From contig NZ_CP095491.1 in the NCBI RefSeq assembly GCF_023028105.1, positions 3,348,001 through 3,412,000 of the forward strand: a stretch of 64,000 nucleotides of DNA, given 5' to 3'. A model generated the notes under the pieces. It saw only the letters and a list, made by a program, of their open reading frames with translations. It had not been told where the DNA came from and ran no database searches. A program made the position numbers and the translations under genes. Source of the DNA: Halosolutus gelatinilyticus. Its GTDB lineage: Archaea > Halobacteriota > Halobacteria > Halobacteriales > Natrialbaceae. This document shows positions 13,531 through 19,500 of the stretch, piece after piece (the stretch's first letter is position 1; every line of letters starts with the position of its first letter).

Positions 13531-14622
13531 TCAGTCCTCGGTCTCGGTGGGCAGCTTGTTGTCCGGGTCGCCGCCCATGTGCTCGGCGACCGTTCGGCGG
13601 TTGGTCTCGCCGACGCGATCGCTGATTTCGGCGACGAGGTCCGCGAGCGTCTCCTGGACCTGACTGTCCTCGTCCTTGACGAGTGCACCGTTGGTGCCGT
13701 CGGCCCCGAAGTCGGGGTGGATCGGGACCCGGCCGAGCAGCGGGACTTCGTACTTGTCGACGATGGTGTCCGCGCCGCCGGTGCCGAACAGGCCGTGTTG
13801 GTCGCCACAGGACGGACAGATGAACGAACTCATGTTCTCGACAACGCCGAGGACGGGCGTGTCGTGCTTGTTGAACATCTGAATGCCCTTGCGGGTGTCG
13901 TCCAGCGCCATCTCCTGGGGCGTCGTTACGACGACGGCGCCCGTCACCGGCATCGACTGCAGAAGGTTCAACGTGGCGTCGCCGGTCCCCGGCGGCAGAT
14001 CGACGATGAGGTAGTCGAGGCGGCCCCACTCGACGCCTTCCAGGAACTTCAGCATGAACTTGTTGACCATCGGGCCCCGAAGGATGGCCGGGTCGTCCTC
14101 TTCTTCCATCATGAAGCCCATGCTGATGACGCGAACGCCGTCCGATCGGGGCGGGACGATGTCCTCGCTCGGGGTCACGCCGGGATCGCTCTCGACCGGC
14201 AGAATCCGGGGCACGTTCGGACCGTGAATGTCGGCGTCGAGGATGCCAACCATGGCGCCGCGCTTCTCGAGGCCGGCGGCGAGGTTGGCCGCGACCGTCG
14301 TCTTGCCGACGCCGCCTTTCCCGGATGCGACAGCGATCACGTTGCGGACGCGGGGCAGGACCTCCTCGTCGAACCCGTGTTCCTGGCCGACGTGGGCGCG
14401 CAGGTCGGCTTCGAGGCCGACTTCGTCGCAGACCTCTCGGATCCGGTTGCCGAGTTCCATCTCGGAGGGGGCATACGGCGCGTTCAGCGCGAGCGAGATT
14501 CGCGCCGTCTCGTCGTCGATGGCGACGTCGTTGACCAGCCCGAGCGAGATTATGTCCTCCCCGATGTCCGGGTCTTTGACGTCCTCGAGTTTGATCTTGA
14601 GTTCGTGTTCTGTAATACTCAT
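13531..14622 (-). CDS. apbC: Mrp/NBP35-type P-loop ATPase, iron-sulfur carrier
   Basis: 363 residues. The N-terminal MIP18/DUF59 domain (about 1-85) is followed by the deviant Walker A motif GKGGVGKTT of the ParA/MinD superfamily, then DADIHGPN and a Walker-B-like LIVDLPPGTGD. CPSC in FICPSCGDQHGLFG is the CxxC that binds a bridging 4Fe-4S cluster between subunits. The family carries and delivers Fe-S clusters. It lies directly upstream, on the same strand, of no visible partner; the respiratory Fe-S module at 14.8-18.6 kb is transcribed toward it and may be a client (inference only). Confidence 0.93.
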   Translation of the reverse strand: MSITEHELKIKLEDVKDPDIGEDIISLGLVNDVAIDDETARISLALNAPYAPSEMELGNRIREVCDEVGLEADLRAHVGQEHGFDEEVLPRVRNVIAVASGKGGVGKTTVAANLAAGLEKRGAMVGILDADIHGPNVPRILPVESDPGVTPSEDIVPPRSDGVRVISMGFMMEEEDDPAILRGPMVNKFMLKFLEGVEWGRLDYLIVDLPPGTGDATLNLLQSMPVTGAVVVTTPQEMALDDTRKGIQMFNKHDTPVLGVVENMSSFICPSCGDQHGLFGTGGADTIVDKYEVPLLGRVPIHPDFGADGTNGALVKDEDSQVQETLADLVAEISDRVGETNRRTVAEHMGGDPDNKLPTETED

Positions 14623-14804: not shown

Positions 14805-15107
14805 TCAGGGGACGATCGGAAGGAAGGAAAAGACCCGCGGCAGACCGCCGTAGAAGATGATACCGAGCAATAGCGTGAAGATCAGCATGCCGACCCACAT
14901 CTGGGTCGCGATGCCGACGAGGTAGGTGACCCCGAGCAGGCCGGTTTTCGTATCGCGGGGAGAGCCGAGAAACCACGCCGCGACCATGATGTAGATCGGC
15001 ACGAGGATGACGCCGAAGATGAGCCAGGTCCCCGTGTTCGGATAACCGGTGAGTCCTTCAGTCCCCTCGTAGCCGTGATAGAGCACGGCAGCGAGCGCGG
15101 AATGCAT
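14805..15107 (-). CDS. Small membrane protein of the NrfD module (copy B)
   Basis: 100 residues with two or three membrane helices. It is a clear paralogue of the preceding operon gene: both share LYHGYEGTEGLTG, RDTKTGL and TQMWVGM. I do not recognise a named family. It is the last gene of the run Fe-S protein, NrfD, small protein A, small protein B, with 162 bases before it. The conserved pattern next to an NrfD subunit suggests a small structural subunit of the same membrane complex, comparable in size and place to small subunits of alternative complex III; that comparison is inference. Confidence 0.75.
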   Translation of the reverse strand: MHSALAAVLYHGYEGTEGLTGYPNTGTWLIFGVILVPIYIMVAAWFLGSPRDTKTGLLGVTYLVGIATQMWVGMLIFTLLLGIIFYGGLPRVFSFLPIVP

Positions 15108-15269
15108 ACCGAAGGTATGGTTGCCGTCGCGGTTGATGGTCCGCCCTGCGTGCTCAGGGGGGTTGTTAAGGCGCGATCGACTGCACCGGGGCTGATCGGG
15201 TCGGCGGTGAGCGTCGAAGAGACGAAAAACGGTGAACCGAAGCGTAGTCCGAAGGCGATCGAATCGAAT

Positions 15270-15587
15270 CTACGGCGGACCGACCGCACTGAACGGTTCG
15301 GGGAGACCGCCGTAGAAGAGGGCGCCGATGATCATCGTCAAGATGAACATTCCGACCCACATCTGGGTCGTGATCCCGACGAGGTACGAGACGCCCATCA
15401 GCCCGGTCTTCGTGTCGCGCGGTTCGCCGAGGAACCACGCGGTGACCATGGCGTAGACCGGAACCAGGATGACGGCGAAGATGAGGTACGTCCCGATGTT
15501 CGGGAAGCCGGTGAGTCCTTCGGTCCCCTCGTAGCCGTGGTAGAGGACCCACGAGAGGCCATTCAGAAGCTCGGGCGTCAGCGTCAT
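15270..15587 (-). CDS. Small membrane protein of the NrfD module (copy A)
   Basis: 105 residues, two or three predicted membrane helices (around residues 30-50 and 70-92). Paralogue of the gene at 14805-15107, with a nearly identical core (VLYHGYEGTEGLTGFPN, GEPRDTKTGLMG, TTQMWVGMF). Its ATG overlaps the NrfD stop codon, so the two are translationally coupled. Function is unknown; tight coupling points to a subunit of the NrfD complex. Confidence 0.8.
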   Translation of the reverse strand: MTLTPELLNGLSWVLYHGYEGTEGLTGFPNIGTYLIFAVILVPVYAMVTAWFLGEPRDTKTGLMGVSYLVGITTQMWVGMFILTMIIGALFYGGLPEPFSAVGPP

Positions 15588-16951
15588 ACTTTCACCTCCT
15601 GCTCAGCGGCGGTTTCGTGCACCGATTCGTGTTCGTGGTCGTGTTCGCCGTTCAAGTGTTCGATCGCGTGGAGCTCCACCACGGGAACGACCTTGGAGAC
15701 GGTCAGGAAGACGAGGATGACCAGGCCGATCGTACCGGCCAGCGACAGCCACTCGATCGCGCTCGGGAAGTACTCGCCGGGAGTCGCCTCGTAAATCATG
15801 AAGGCGGGGTGCAGGAAGCCCTCGATGACGAACAGGAGCTTCTCCGTGAAGGTCGCGGCGAGCACGCCCACGCTGACGACGAGCGCGCGCTTCTTGCTGA
15901 ACAGTGCCGGCCGGATGATCGTCGCGAAGATGTACGCGAGCGAGAGGCCGATCGTGCCGATCGCGATCCGGTAGATGGGGTTGGCGACCTTCGCTTCGCT
16001 CGCGTGGGCGCGGGCGAGCGGCGCCTTGAACAGCCCGTTCACGCCGAACTGCAGCTGGAACCAGAGGAACAGCATGCAGAAGAATCCGAGCCAGAGGAGC
16101 AGGCCGCGGAAGATGTCGTCGGTGATGATGTGTTCCCAACCGTAAGCGCGCCGGAAGCCGTACGCGACGAGGGTGACGCCGCTGATCGCGGACATGAGCG
16201 CGATCGAGAGGAACGTCGGCCCCTGGATGCCGCCCTCCCAGGCGGGCATCGCCGGGAGCAGGGAGAACAGCCACGGAATCACGCCGCCGTGGAGCAACAG
16301 CGGGGCCATGATGATGACCGCGAGCGCGAGCCACCAGACCATCCGCTCGATGATCGGATCTTCCTTCTCGGAGTAGCCGAGGGTCATGAGCTTGTAGATC
16401 GGCTCGAAGCGGTCCGGAAGCTGGTCGCGCAGTCGCGTGATGTCGTATCGGAGCGTGAGAGCGAGGTAGGTCGCCGTCAGCACGAAGTAGGCCGTGATGA
16501 CGGTGACGTCCCACACCAGCGGCGAGTTGTTGACCGTGATGTGGTAGTGGCCGAGGACGCTCGTGACCATCCGATCCGGACGGCCCATGTGGACGAGAAT
16601 GTAAAAGCCCGCCGCGGAGAGGCCGGCGATCGTCAGCAGTTCGGCGAGGCGGGCGACCGGCATGTACCGGTCCATCCCCAGCAGTCTGACGGACGCTGAC
16701 AGGATAATCCCGCCGTGGGCGATGCCGACCCACCAGATGAACGCCCCGATGTACAGCCCCCACGTGACGCCGCCGCCGGAGCCCCAGTCGCCGAGACCGG
16801 TAACGATGAGTCCCTTCTGGAGCTGGTAGGCCCAGGCGACGAGGAACGCGCCGAGCGCCAGCGCACAGGCGGCGAACAGGGCGATGTACTGCTTGCTGAT
16901 GTTGTTGATCGGCCGGAGGATGTCCGCTTCGGACGGGGTCTTGGTGCTCAT
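15584..16951 (-). CDS. NrfD/PsrC-family membrane quinone-oxidoreductase subunit
   Basis: 455 residues with about ten membrane helices. The sequence around GGGVTWGLYIGAFIWWVGIAHGG and LVHMGRPDRMV is typical of NrfD/PsrC/ActC proteins, which exchange electrons between menaquinol and an attached Fe-S subunit. The His-rich tail (residues about 433-450) is soluble. Its start overlaps the stop of the Fe-S gene and its stop overlaps the start of small protein A, so this is one operon. Menaquinone, its likely partner, is made by the men cluster in this same window. Confidence 0.9.
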   Translation of the reverse strand: MSTKTPSEADILRPINNISKQYIALFAACALALGAFLVAWAYQLQKGLIVTGLGDWGSGGGVTWGLYIGAFIWWVGIAHGGIILSASVRLLGMDRYMPVARLAELLTIAGLSAAGFYILVHMGRPDRMVTSVLGHYHITVNNSPLVWDVTVITAYFVLTATYLALTLRYDITRLRDQLPDRFEPIYKLMTLGYSEKEDPIIERMVWWLALAVIIMAPLLLHGGVIPWLFSLLPAMPAWEGGIQGPTFLSIALMSAISGVTLVAYGFRRAYGWEHIITDDIFRGLLLWLGFFCMLFLWFQLQFGVNGLFKAPLARAHASEAKVANPIYRIAIGTIGLSLAYIFATIIRPALFSKKRALVVSVGVLAATFTEKLLFVIEGFLHPAFMIYEATPGEYFPSAIEWLSLAGTIGLVILVFLTVSKVVPVVELHAIEHLNGEHDHEHESVHETAAEQEVKV

Positions 16952-18573
16952 TTAATCCGCACCCCCGCGTCGCCGACGGTCCCCTTGTCGAGGACTTCCT
17001 TGCGATTGTCCGTCAGGTCGAGGTCATCGTAGGCGACCGGACCGTCGACCTGGTGGGCGTGCGCGCCGGGTTCGTCACCGATGTACGTGATGTTCGGATT
17101 GGTCCCCATATCCTCGAGCAGCTTGAACTTCGAGCTCGGGTTGCCGGCGTACTCCCGCAGCCGACCGTTGGCGTCGTTCGCGCTGCCCCCGCCGAGTCGC
17201 AGTTCGGAGAGCGTATCCTCGCTCTCGAGGTCGACGTACTCCTCGAGCGCGTCGAGGGACTCGAGGATCGTCTGTTCCTTCTCGAGGATGGTGTTGTTCT
17301 CCGCGTCGCCGGGGCCGAGCCGTTCGCTGACGATGTCGATCGCCTTCATGACGCTGACCAACTCGCGATCGATCTCGAGCGCCTCGATCGCGGACTGGAG
17401 GTCGTCGTCCTCGCTGAGGGTCTCATCGACTGTGTCTGGCGACGGCACGGCGTTGTGGATGTCGATGATGGCCCGGCTCTTGCTCGGGTGCTCGCGGTGC
17501 TGGGAGGGATCGCTCCGCTTGTTATGGACGTCGCCGAACTGGATCGCGTTCGGCGGGCAGGCCTGCTCGCAGGCGGTCGTGCCGACCATCTCGTCGCCGC
17601 GATCCCCGTCCTGGTGGGACGGGCACATCGTACACTTGCTCATGACGCCGCGGGGAGCGCGAGCGTCGACCCAGCGCTCGCCGTGTTCGTACTCGGCGAT
17701 CGTAGCGTTGCGTGGGTCCGAGTCGTCCGGAATGCGTTCCGACTCTTCCGGAATGTCCTCGTACGCGACGTCGGGTTCGTCCCACTGGAAGTAGTTGACG
17801 CCGTACGGGCAGGCGACCTGGCAGTAGCGGCAACCGATACAGACGTCGTAGTCGGTCAGTACGAGGCCGTCTTTATCGCGGGTGTGTCGAGCCGTCGTCG
17901 GACACACCTTCTCACACGGCGCGTCGGTGCAGTGCTGACACGGCCGTACGAGCATGTTCTGGGGCACCCCGCCTCTCACGTCCGGCGGGGTGGACGGGCT
18001 ATTGGCGGTCCCGTCTTCGAAGGCCATGACGTACATCCAGTTCACCCCCTGATCCAGCTGGTTTTCCTCGGAACAGGCGTTGACGCAGGAGAGACAGCCG
18101 TCACAGCGTTCGAGGTCGATCGTCATCCCCCACTGGAGGCCGTCGTGCCCCCCTTCTTCGGGCGCCTCCGCGGCTGCGACGTTGGCTTCGCGACTGTTTT
18201 CGGCCGTGCCCCAGGCGCCGAGCCCGACGGCCGCCGCGCCGGCTCCCATCTTCTTCATCGCCTCGCGGCGGCTCTCTTCGCCGTCACCCCCGAACTTCTC
18301 GAGCATCCGGGAGACCGTGCCCTTGGCCTCCTTCTGGGCGGTCTCGAAGGCTTCGGCGGTCGGGCGGCTGTCCTCGCCGAATTCCTCCATCACGTCCTCG
18401 TGATACATCTCGTGGAATTCGGCTTCGGATAGCTCGCCCTTGGTGACGCGCATCGCGTCCTGGGCCATTTGCATACCGAGTTCGGTATCGTACTCGGTAT
18501 CGTCGAGCATCGACTCGAGTTCGTCTTCCCACTCGCTTCCGAGCGGGTGGAATGATTCGTCGTCCGTACTCAT
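16948..18573 (-). CDS. Four-cluster ferredoxin subunit (PsrB/ActB-like) with internal Tat-like motif
   Basis: 541 residues. A 100-residue acidic N-terminal extension precedes SRREAMKKMGAGAAAVGLG (residues 101-119), which looks like a Tat signal in an unusual internal place; ActB of alternative complex III also has an extended region before its Tat motif. Cysteine groups follow at about 157-167, 212-224, 245-255 and 320-344, enough for four cubane clusters. The C-terminal 170 residues are helical and of unknown role. An unusual segment (residues about 189-205) is encoded over a 9-base-arm DNA hairpin. It probably passes electrons between the NrfD subunit and an unidentified catalytic partner on the outer face. 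Confidence 0.88.
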   Translation of the reverse strand: MSTDDESFHPLGSEWEDELESMLDDTEYDTELGMQMAQDAMRVTKGELSEAEFHEMYHEDVMEEFGEDSRPTAEAFETAQKEAKGTVSRMLEKFGGDGEESRREAMKKMGAGAAAVGLGAWGTAENSREANVAAAEAPEEGGHDGLQWGMTIDLERCDGCLSCVNACSEENQLDQGVNWMYVMAFEDGTANSPSTPPDVRGGVPQNMLVRPCQHCTDAPCEKVCPTTARHTRDKDGLVLTDYDVCIGCRYCQVACPYGVNYFQWDEPDVAYEDIPEESERIPDDSDPRNATIAEYEHGERWVDARAPRGVMSKCTMCPSHQDGDRGDEMVGTTACEQACPPNAIQFGDVHNKRSDPSQHREHPSKSRAIIDIHNAVPSPDTVDETLSEDDDLQSAIEALEIDRELVSVMKAIDIVSERLGPGDAENNTILEKEQTILESLDALEEYVDLESEDTLSELRLGGGSANDANGRLREYAGNPSSKFKLLEDMGTNPNITYIGDEPGAHAHQVDGPVAYDDLDLTDNRKEVLDKGTVGDAGVRIK

Positions 18574-18630
18574 CAGGTCAGAACACCTCTGTACACGGCG
18601 GTTTCGTAGAGCAGTAACTTGCCGGGGTGT

Positions 18631-18640
18631 ACTTTAATAT
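18631..18640 (-). promoter_or_regulatory. TATA-like element for the Fe-S/NrfD operon
   Basis: On the minus strand this reads ATATTAAAGT, about 60 bases before the Fe-S gene start. It is one of the few AT-rich spots in the intergenic DNA and would give a short 5' leader. A second AT-rich patch (about 18733-18750) lies nearer the regulator gene. Confidence 0.3.
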
Positions 18641-18828
18641 GTCCATCTATTCCTCTAACCCGAGACTCACGACCAGATCTAGTTGAAATATGGACCCGGT
18701 TTCCACTTCGCGAGAATCGGCGCGAACATGTTCGGTTATACATATAGGTCGCAATTCATCACCGAGAGTCCAGCATACGGATAGCTAGAAACAAGCTGGC
18801 CTCTGAGTCAGCGACCTGGGTCGATTGA

Positions 18829-19500
18829 TCAGTTCGCGGCGAATCGCCCCTCGAGCGATTCGTCCTCGAGTCCCGGCAGATCCTCGACGAACCGCTTGAT
18901 GATCGCCTCTTCGGCCCGGTGGAGCGTCTCGCTGCAGGTCGACTTCGCGATCTCGAGGTGTTCCGCCAGCTCCGTCAGCGAACACCGACGCGGCGTATCG
19001 TAGTACCCCTGCTCGACGGCGGCGGCCACAATTTCGAGTTGGCGCTCCGAGAGTAACTGACTCTCGTGGAGCCGTTCCTTGACGTGCTCGATCCGGTACC
19101 GCAGGCCGAACCGTTCCAACTGGTCGGCCAGTTCGGCGATCCGCTCGCGCGACCCGGTCACGTCGATCGTCGCCTCCCCGTCCCGAATCTCGACCGGGAG
19201 TTCGATCGGCATCCCCGGCTCCCGCGGGGAGAACTGCAGGAGCGGTTCCGTCGTCTCGAAGTGGACCGTCGCCTCGTTCTCGCTCCGCTGGACGAGCGTC
19301 AGTTCGGTGAGCTGCGGGTGCTCGCTCATGTCGTTGAGCACGTCGGCCACCTCGGGGCCGGCGATCCGAACGAGCGCGAAGCCGGACTCCGAGCCCGGAA
19401 CGGCCGCGAGGACTCTGAACGTCGCGTCCGGGTAGGCCGTCGAGATCTGGTGTACCCAGACCTCCTCGGGCATCGTAATCGTGAGTGTCGCTTGAGCCAT
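18829..19500 (-). CDS. Bat/DmsR-type helix-turn-helix regulator (HTH_10)
   Basis: 223 residues. The N-terminal 150 residues form a ligand- or signal-sensing region. The C-terminus (about 155-210) carries the HTH_10 domain: LSERQLEIVAAAVEQGYYDTPRR, then a recognition helix region LAEHLEIAKSTCSETLHRAEE. This family includes bacterio-opsin activator (Bat) and DmsR, which switches on DMSO/TMAO respiration in Halobacterium. The gene lies just upstream of, and on the same strand as, the Fe-S/NrfD operon, with about 255 bases between, so it is the obvious candidate regulator of that operon (inference from position). Confidence 0.85.
   Translation of the reverse strand: MAQATLTITMPEEVWVHQISTAYPDATFRVLAAVPGSESGFALVRIAGPEVADVLNDMSEHPQLTELTLVQRSENEATVHFETTEPLLQFSPREPGMPIELPVEIRDGEATIDVTGSRERIAELADQLERFGLRYRIEHVKERLHESQLLSERQLEIVAAAVEQGYYDTPRRCSLTELAEHLEIAKSTCSETLHRAEEAIIKRFVEDLPGLEDESLEGRFAAN

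Follow-up and report, generated by a model that had tools for sequence, protein, structure and literature searches.

We identified in the window (the whole 64,000-nucleotide stretch of DNA analysed) a locus on the minus strand, at positions 14805-18573, that encodes a Tat-type iron-sulphur (FeS) protein, an NrfD protein and a pair of small membrane proteins that resemble each other. With a probability of roughly 0.68, this module is an alternative-complex-III-like menaquinol:halocyanin oxidoreductase that is free of both haem and molybdenum, for which we infer the acceptor and the direction of electron flow. The proposed function is based on the complementarity with cytochrome b among genomes, the linkage to halocyanin genes, the CuA oxidases of the host and the likeness of NrfD to ActC, and also on the absence of a molybdenum subunit from the strong relatives and of an unpaired Tat-exported molybdoenzyme from the host. 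The features of the locus are as follows.

18829-19500, minus strand: Bat/DmsR-type HTH_10 regulator (PF04967, E = 9e-19; PF15915 weak)
16948-18573, minus strand: FeS subunit, 541 aa, with fused E domain, Tat motif and four 4Fe-4S motifs
18355-18549, minus strand: E domain (Ferredoxin_N, PF16947, E = 4e-35), FeS residues 9-73
18265-18270, minus strand: twin-arginine pair Arg102-Arg103, Tat signal of the FeS subunit, invariant among relatives
15584-16951, minus strand: NrfD/ActC-like membrane subunit, 455 aa, with predicted quinol site H121, S143, D148
15270-15587, minus strand: small membrane subunit, 105 aa, with two hydrophobic segments
14805-15107, minus strand: tandem duplicate of the small subunit, 100 aa, similar to the first copy
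13531-14622, minus strand: Mrp/ApbC (NUBPL-type) Fe-S carrier (PF10609, E = 5e-91), conserved last gene of the block

All genes named in a sequence-only reading of this DNA are present at these positions on the minus strand, in the order regulator, FeS, NrfD, small protein, tandem duplicate and Mrp/ApbC. The FeS and NrfD genes overlap by 4 bp, as do the NrfD and first small genes, while 162 bp precede the second small gene and a further 182 bp precede Mrp. Pfam matches were obtained for Ferredoxin_N and 4Fe-4S domains, NrfD and HTH_10. No catalytic, haem or molybdenum gene lies beside the module at the window locus, and the CxxCH haem motif is absent from all four operon proteins. The Bat/DmsR-type regulator is the upstream neighbour in most Natrialbaceae loci.

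Conservation of the block was analyzed in two sets of loci. The first comprised 80 NrfD relatives from one scan of species genomes together with the window and the second copy of the host (82 loci in total), and the FeS-NrfD-small block was found in 47 of them, with Mrp nearly always included; in most of the remaining loci, the NrfD gene is instead the unlinked second paralogue found in Natrialbaceae. The second set contained 40 divergent loci, and the order FeS-NrfD-small-Mrp was present in all 39 that were readable by the gene caller. At the fortieth (L134, 47% G+C), tblastn and ORF listing located the FeS, NrfD and small proteins and did not find Mrp. Because the arrangement recurs in 47/82 loci and in all 39 divergent ones, it is not due to chance, and the FeS-NrfD-small-Mrp block is conserved across haloarchaeal families, as the proposed search for conserved neighbours was meant to reveal. 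The four coupled genes recognised earlier are all present in the window, and Mrp (13531-14622) is to be counted in the conserved block.

The FeS subunit consists of PF16947 (residues 9-73), followed by the twin-arginine motif (Arg102-103) and four cluster motifs, whose 16 cysteines are invariant in an alignment with 21 relatives and make up four complete 4Fe-4S sites. In DMSO-reductase-type operons (L178, L180-184, L192-194; gene roles assigned from sequence and order), a stand-alone PF16947 protein is encoded just ahead of the molybdenum subunit. The extended leader of the FeS subunit therefore corresponds to protein E fused before the Tat signal. What had been described as an ActB-like long Tat leader is indeed long, and its length comes from this separate domain in front. 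Since the stand-alone copies always directly precede a Tat-bearing molybdenum subunit in these operons, PF16947 is suggested to act in Tat-linked maturation and not as a ferredoxin part. The FeS subunit aligns with the C-terminal third of ActB only, its N-terminus being PF16947, and its best NCBIfam match is DsrO (123 of 200 bits, well under the curated cut-off), with QrcC also among the matches below cut-off. Its predicted structure was poor, so it was left out of the fold search.

For NrfD, the sequence relatives in the PDB are the ActC chains of alternative complex III only. The same chains are the four top fold matches of the NrfD model, which has moderate confidence (pLDDT 74, pTM 0.79), with E-values from 3e-14 to 1e-11 and TM 0.77-0.80; ActF comes next and PsrC is far behind (TMq 0.39). 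The quinol-site residues of R. marinus ActC include His139, Ser164, Asp169 and Asp253 (PMC8076601). The first three correspond to H121, S143 and D148 of NrfD, which are all invariant and form the predicted quinol site, and Asp253 corresponds to Trp227 in an alignment read by eye. Archaeal DmsC was grouped with ActC, ActF and DsrP in a review (PMC8076601); the window NrfD is 33% identical to DmsC over less than half of its length, and its best NCBIfam match is DsrP (73 of 350 bits, well under the curated cut-off). Its identity is 71% with the host paralogue, 40% with L231, 36% with L221 and 30% with L191, and searches outside the class retrieved distant NrfD proteins only (best E = 1e-31). Comparison of sequences and folds, which places NrfD nearest to ActC, thus supports the earlier suggestion of a menaquinone-linked complex recalling alternative complex III.

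The module shares with alternative complex III the ActC-type NrfD fold, the His/Ser/Asp of the quinol site, a Tat-type FeS subunit and a predicted role in passing electrons from quinol to a one-electron carrier. However, it is without the MopB-like half of ActB and without the haem proteins ActA and ActE, its block has no ActD and no ActF (a second NrfD; there is one NrfD per block, and the host paralogue is unlinked), its motifs form four complete 4Fe-4S sites, and its proposed acceptor is halocyanin, whereas that of alternative complex III is cytochrome c. DsrM, DsrK and DsrJ, the other components of DsrMKJOP, are not beside the module. The cytochrome b6f/bc1-type complex (petABD) has in common with it the proposed menaquinol-to-halocyanin reaction, but the proteins are unrelated, the module contains neither cytochrome b nor Rieske protein, and the distributions are complementary.

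The petABC genes are missing from about one-third of haloarchaea, particularly Natrialbales, and electron flow in these species was described as unresolved in 2021 (PMC8305020); the same gap was noted in 2012 for Natrialba magadii, Haloterrigena turkmenica and Natronomonas pharaonis (PMC3403918). We searched 292 genomes of the class with the NrfD profile and with PF00033 cytochrome b, and scored the module as present at NrfD E < 1e-170. Both were found in 29 genomes, the module only in 68, cytochrome b only in 193 and neither in 2, which means that the module is present in 68/70 genomes without PF00033 cytochrome b versus 29/222 with it (Fisher P-value = 2e-40 by genome and 3e-10 by genus, genera hand-counted; both overstate the association because the genomes come from related lineages, about five of them independent). 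The corresponding numbers (both, module only, cytochrome b only, neither) are 8, 57, 10 and 0 in the host family and 21, 11, 183 and 2 outside it, where the module-only genomes belong to genera g39 and g58 and families f10 and f11. The two genomes with neither (G007 and G093) have no haem-copper oxidase. Among seven genomes with weak PF00033 matches, six encode cytochrome b in an operon with a Rieske protein, and in the other (G001) the sole cytochrome b adjoins nitrate reductase (L167) and no haem-copper oxidase is present. The low-G+C genome G129 (f10; loci L134 and L219, 47% in L134) has the module with a divergent halocyanin and no COX1 match. Both systems occur in 21/204 (ten per cent) of the other haloarchaea that lie outside the host family, so the module does not act solely as a replacement. 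Most of these genomes carry one NrfD subclade (11 rows, support 100/100), which may have moved horizontally and have another duty.

In four families (f1, f3, f10 and f9), the FeS gene has a halocyanin-like gene as its neighbour. This neighbour is on the same strand in several genera of f1 and, as two tandem copies, in genus g58 of f3, and is divergent in f10 and f9. The halocyanins of L057 and L134 were confirmed by Pfam PF00127, and those of other loci were recognised by similarity or copper-site pattern. Such adjacency is seen in a minority of loci, the window not being among them, and its repeated occurrence by chance is unlikely because PF00127 is matched only five times in the 4.76-Mb host genome. 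Halocyanin, which the earlier reading did not mention, is the likely partner. The genome search of the host found no PF00033 cytochrome b match and four COX1 matches, two of which have a neighbouring subunit II with a CuA motif (CTEFCGVGHSRM and CFELCGNGHSLM); the subunit II with CTEFCGVGHSRM was confirmed as COX2 and adjoins a halocyanin. CuA subunit II is also encoded in five other cytochrome-b-less genomes (G025, G117, G218, G286 and G099). One-electron donors deliver their electrons at CuA, and the host therefore needs an enzyme that oxidises menaquinol and reduces halocyanin.

It is rather unlikely that cytochrome-b-less species use menaquinol oxidases and that the module is unrelated to this step, working for example in Qrc-like reverse electron entry into menaquinone from an external donor. 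Quinol oxidases were held to be necessary in natronoarchaea, for which neither complex III nor a known alternative was found (PMC6176080), though the module may have been overlooked in that analysis since it has no haem subunits; furthermore, the FeS subunit matches QrcC below cut-off, and electron direction is not readable from sequence. The CuA subunits of the host and the five other genomes speak against quinol oxidases, which also give no explanation of the 68/70 pattern. A different use of the copper partner is suggested by L136 and L137, two loci of one genus (f3 g42) in which the module lies between NirK-like and NorB-like genes recognised by eye, which points to a possible connection with denitrification, and the subclade of these loci occurs in genomes also having cytochrome b. 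But the arrangement is limited to one genus, and most loci have no denitrification genes nearby, which makes it very unlikely that the module mainly feeds other copper acceptors such as NirK-type nitrite reductase, with oxygen respiration secondary.

The module could also be the B-C portion of a molybdoenzyme that has its catalytic subunit encoded at another site, as both subunits are homologous to the DmsB/PsrB and NrfD families and distant relatives have subunit A. The sequence-only reading had reported a module without adjacent catalytic subunit, which holds for the locus and for its strong relatives (no molybdenum subunit in the block in about 85 strong loci), and had expected an orphan catalytic subunit, for which no candidate emerged. 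The four molybdopterin proteins of the host were examined and none is suitable: one, a Tat-bearing molybdoenzyme, is accompanied by FeS and cytochrome b genes of its own, and the other three show no Tat start. This third alternative, which leaves the cytochrome b complementarity and the halocyanin linkage unexplained, is unlikely. The only Tat-bearing molybdoenzyme of the host (L089, 1121 aa), adjoined by FeS and cytochrome-b-like membrane genes, looks like formate dehydrogenase. In L125, a separate molybdoenzyme-like operon with its own FeS and NrfD-like genes lies upstream of the block.

Subunit A is present in the operons of distant relatives, with the intermediate orders E-A-B-C-D-x-Mrp (L191, L222 and L227; A of L191 confirmed by Pfam) and A-B-C-small-D (L231, a CISM operon that also encodes the small protein). 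A catalytic gene in the operon of relatives, which had been named as evidence against a new system, is thus found in these four distant loci and in none of the strong relatives. Because distant relatives retain subunit A, the module has probably descended from a molybdenum enzyme of the DMSO-reductase type. Like the CISM/DMSO reductase family, it has a four-cluster FeS subunit and a membrane anchor, but no molybdopterin catalytic subunit. Haloarchaeal DMSO-reductase-type operons (E-A-B-C-D) share with it the PF16947 E domain, a B-type FeS protein, NrfD and often a Bat regulator, and distant forms also share Mrp or the small protein, whereas in the module A is absent, E is fused to B and the Tat signal is on B. 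No TorD/DmsD-type chaperone (D) was recognised in the block, which contains Mrp instead. In the proposed origin, an E-A-B-C-D operon would have lost the catalytic A and the chaperone D, and E and a Tat signal would have been fused onto B. This is supported by the gene orders and by the tree, in which NrfD of A-less modules forms one clade (support 93/87) separate from NrfD of A-bearing operons, with the exception of the long-branched L221. L221 is a divergent A-less block (E::B-C-small-x-Mrp) in the cytochrome-b-bearing genome G046, where the catalytic subunit may have been lost independently.

As a menaquinol:halocyanin oxidoreductase, the module would work as follows. Judging from fold and residues, NrfD would bind menaquinol near the outer membrane face, and the FeS subunit, once exported by Tat, would relay the electrons through its four 4Fe-4S sites (the motifs are seen, the route is predicted) to the blue copper protein halocyanin. 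Neighbourhood and genome content suggest that halocyanin may deliver electrons to oxygen reductases of the CuA type and perhaps also to copper nitrite reductase. NrfD may pump protons, by analogy with a proposal for ActC, the small subunits may stabilise NrfD, Mrp would load the FeS clusters before Tat export, and we infer a role for the E domain in the module. It is about as likely as not that the module represents a third type of complex III, namely a haem-free and possibly proton-pumping menaquinol:cupredoxin oxidoreductase that arose when a haloarchaeal molybdenum reductase, having lost its catalytic subunit, passed its electrons on to halocyanin, and that serves nearly all bc-less haloarchaea. 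The module provides a named, deletable candidate for the menaquinol-to-halocyanin step, one that fits the phyletic pattern almost completely and comes with a partner protein, and suggests that a respiratory reductase could turn into a complex III by shedding its catalytic subunit. The earlier suggestion of an undescribed system is supported within the searchable, non-subscription literature, which contains no description of the module as a system and no paper joining halocyanin with alternative complex III. Two papers connect NrfD with Haloferax volcanii and, to judge from their titles, deal with other subjects.

The host also has a second NrfD (L090, C1:1274385-1275740, 71% identical to the window NrfD) and a second FeS protein (L095, C1:3672991-3673185, 48% identical to the window FeS), whose genes lie about 2.4 Mb from each other and have no small gene with them, while other Natrialbaceae (L187-L189) have their second FeS, NrfD and small genes grouped at one locus. 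The small proteins of the window match no Pfam or NCBIfam family above cut-off, and the two share 73% identity over 93 aa. Duplicated small membrane proteins were therefore correctly recognised in the window, but they are not a general trait, with the duplicate found in 13 of the 82 NrfD-relative loci and in some Natrialbaceae genera only. The second small gene might work together with the second, unlinked FeS/NrfD pair. Natrinema species carry a second NrfD yet a single small gene, whereas P0001 groups with the small protein of the second-type operon L084 in a quick tree.
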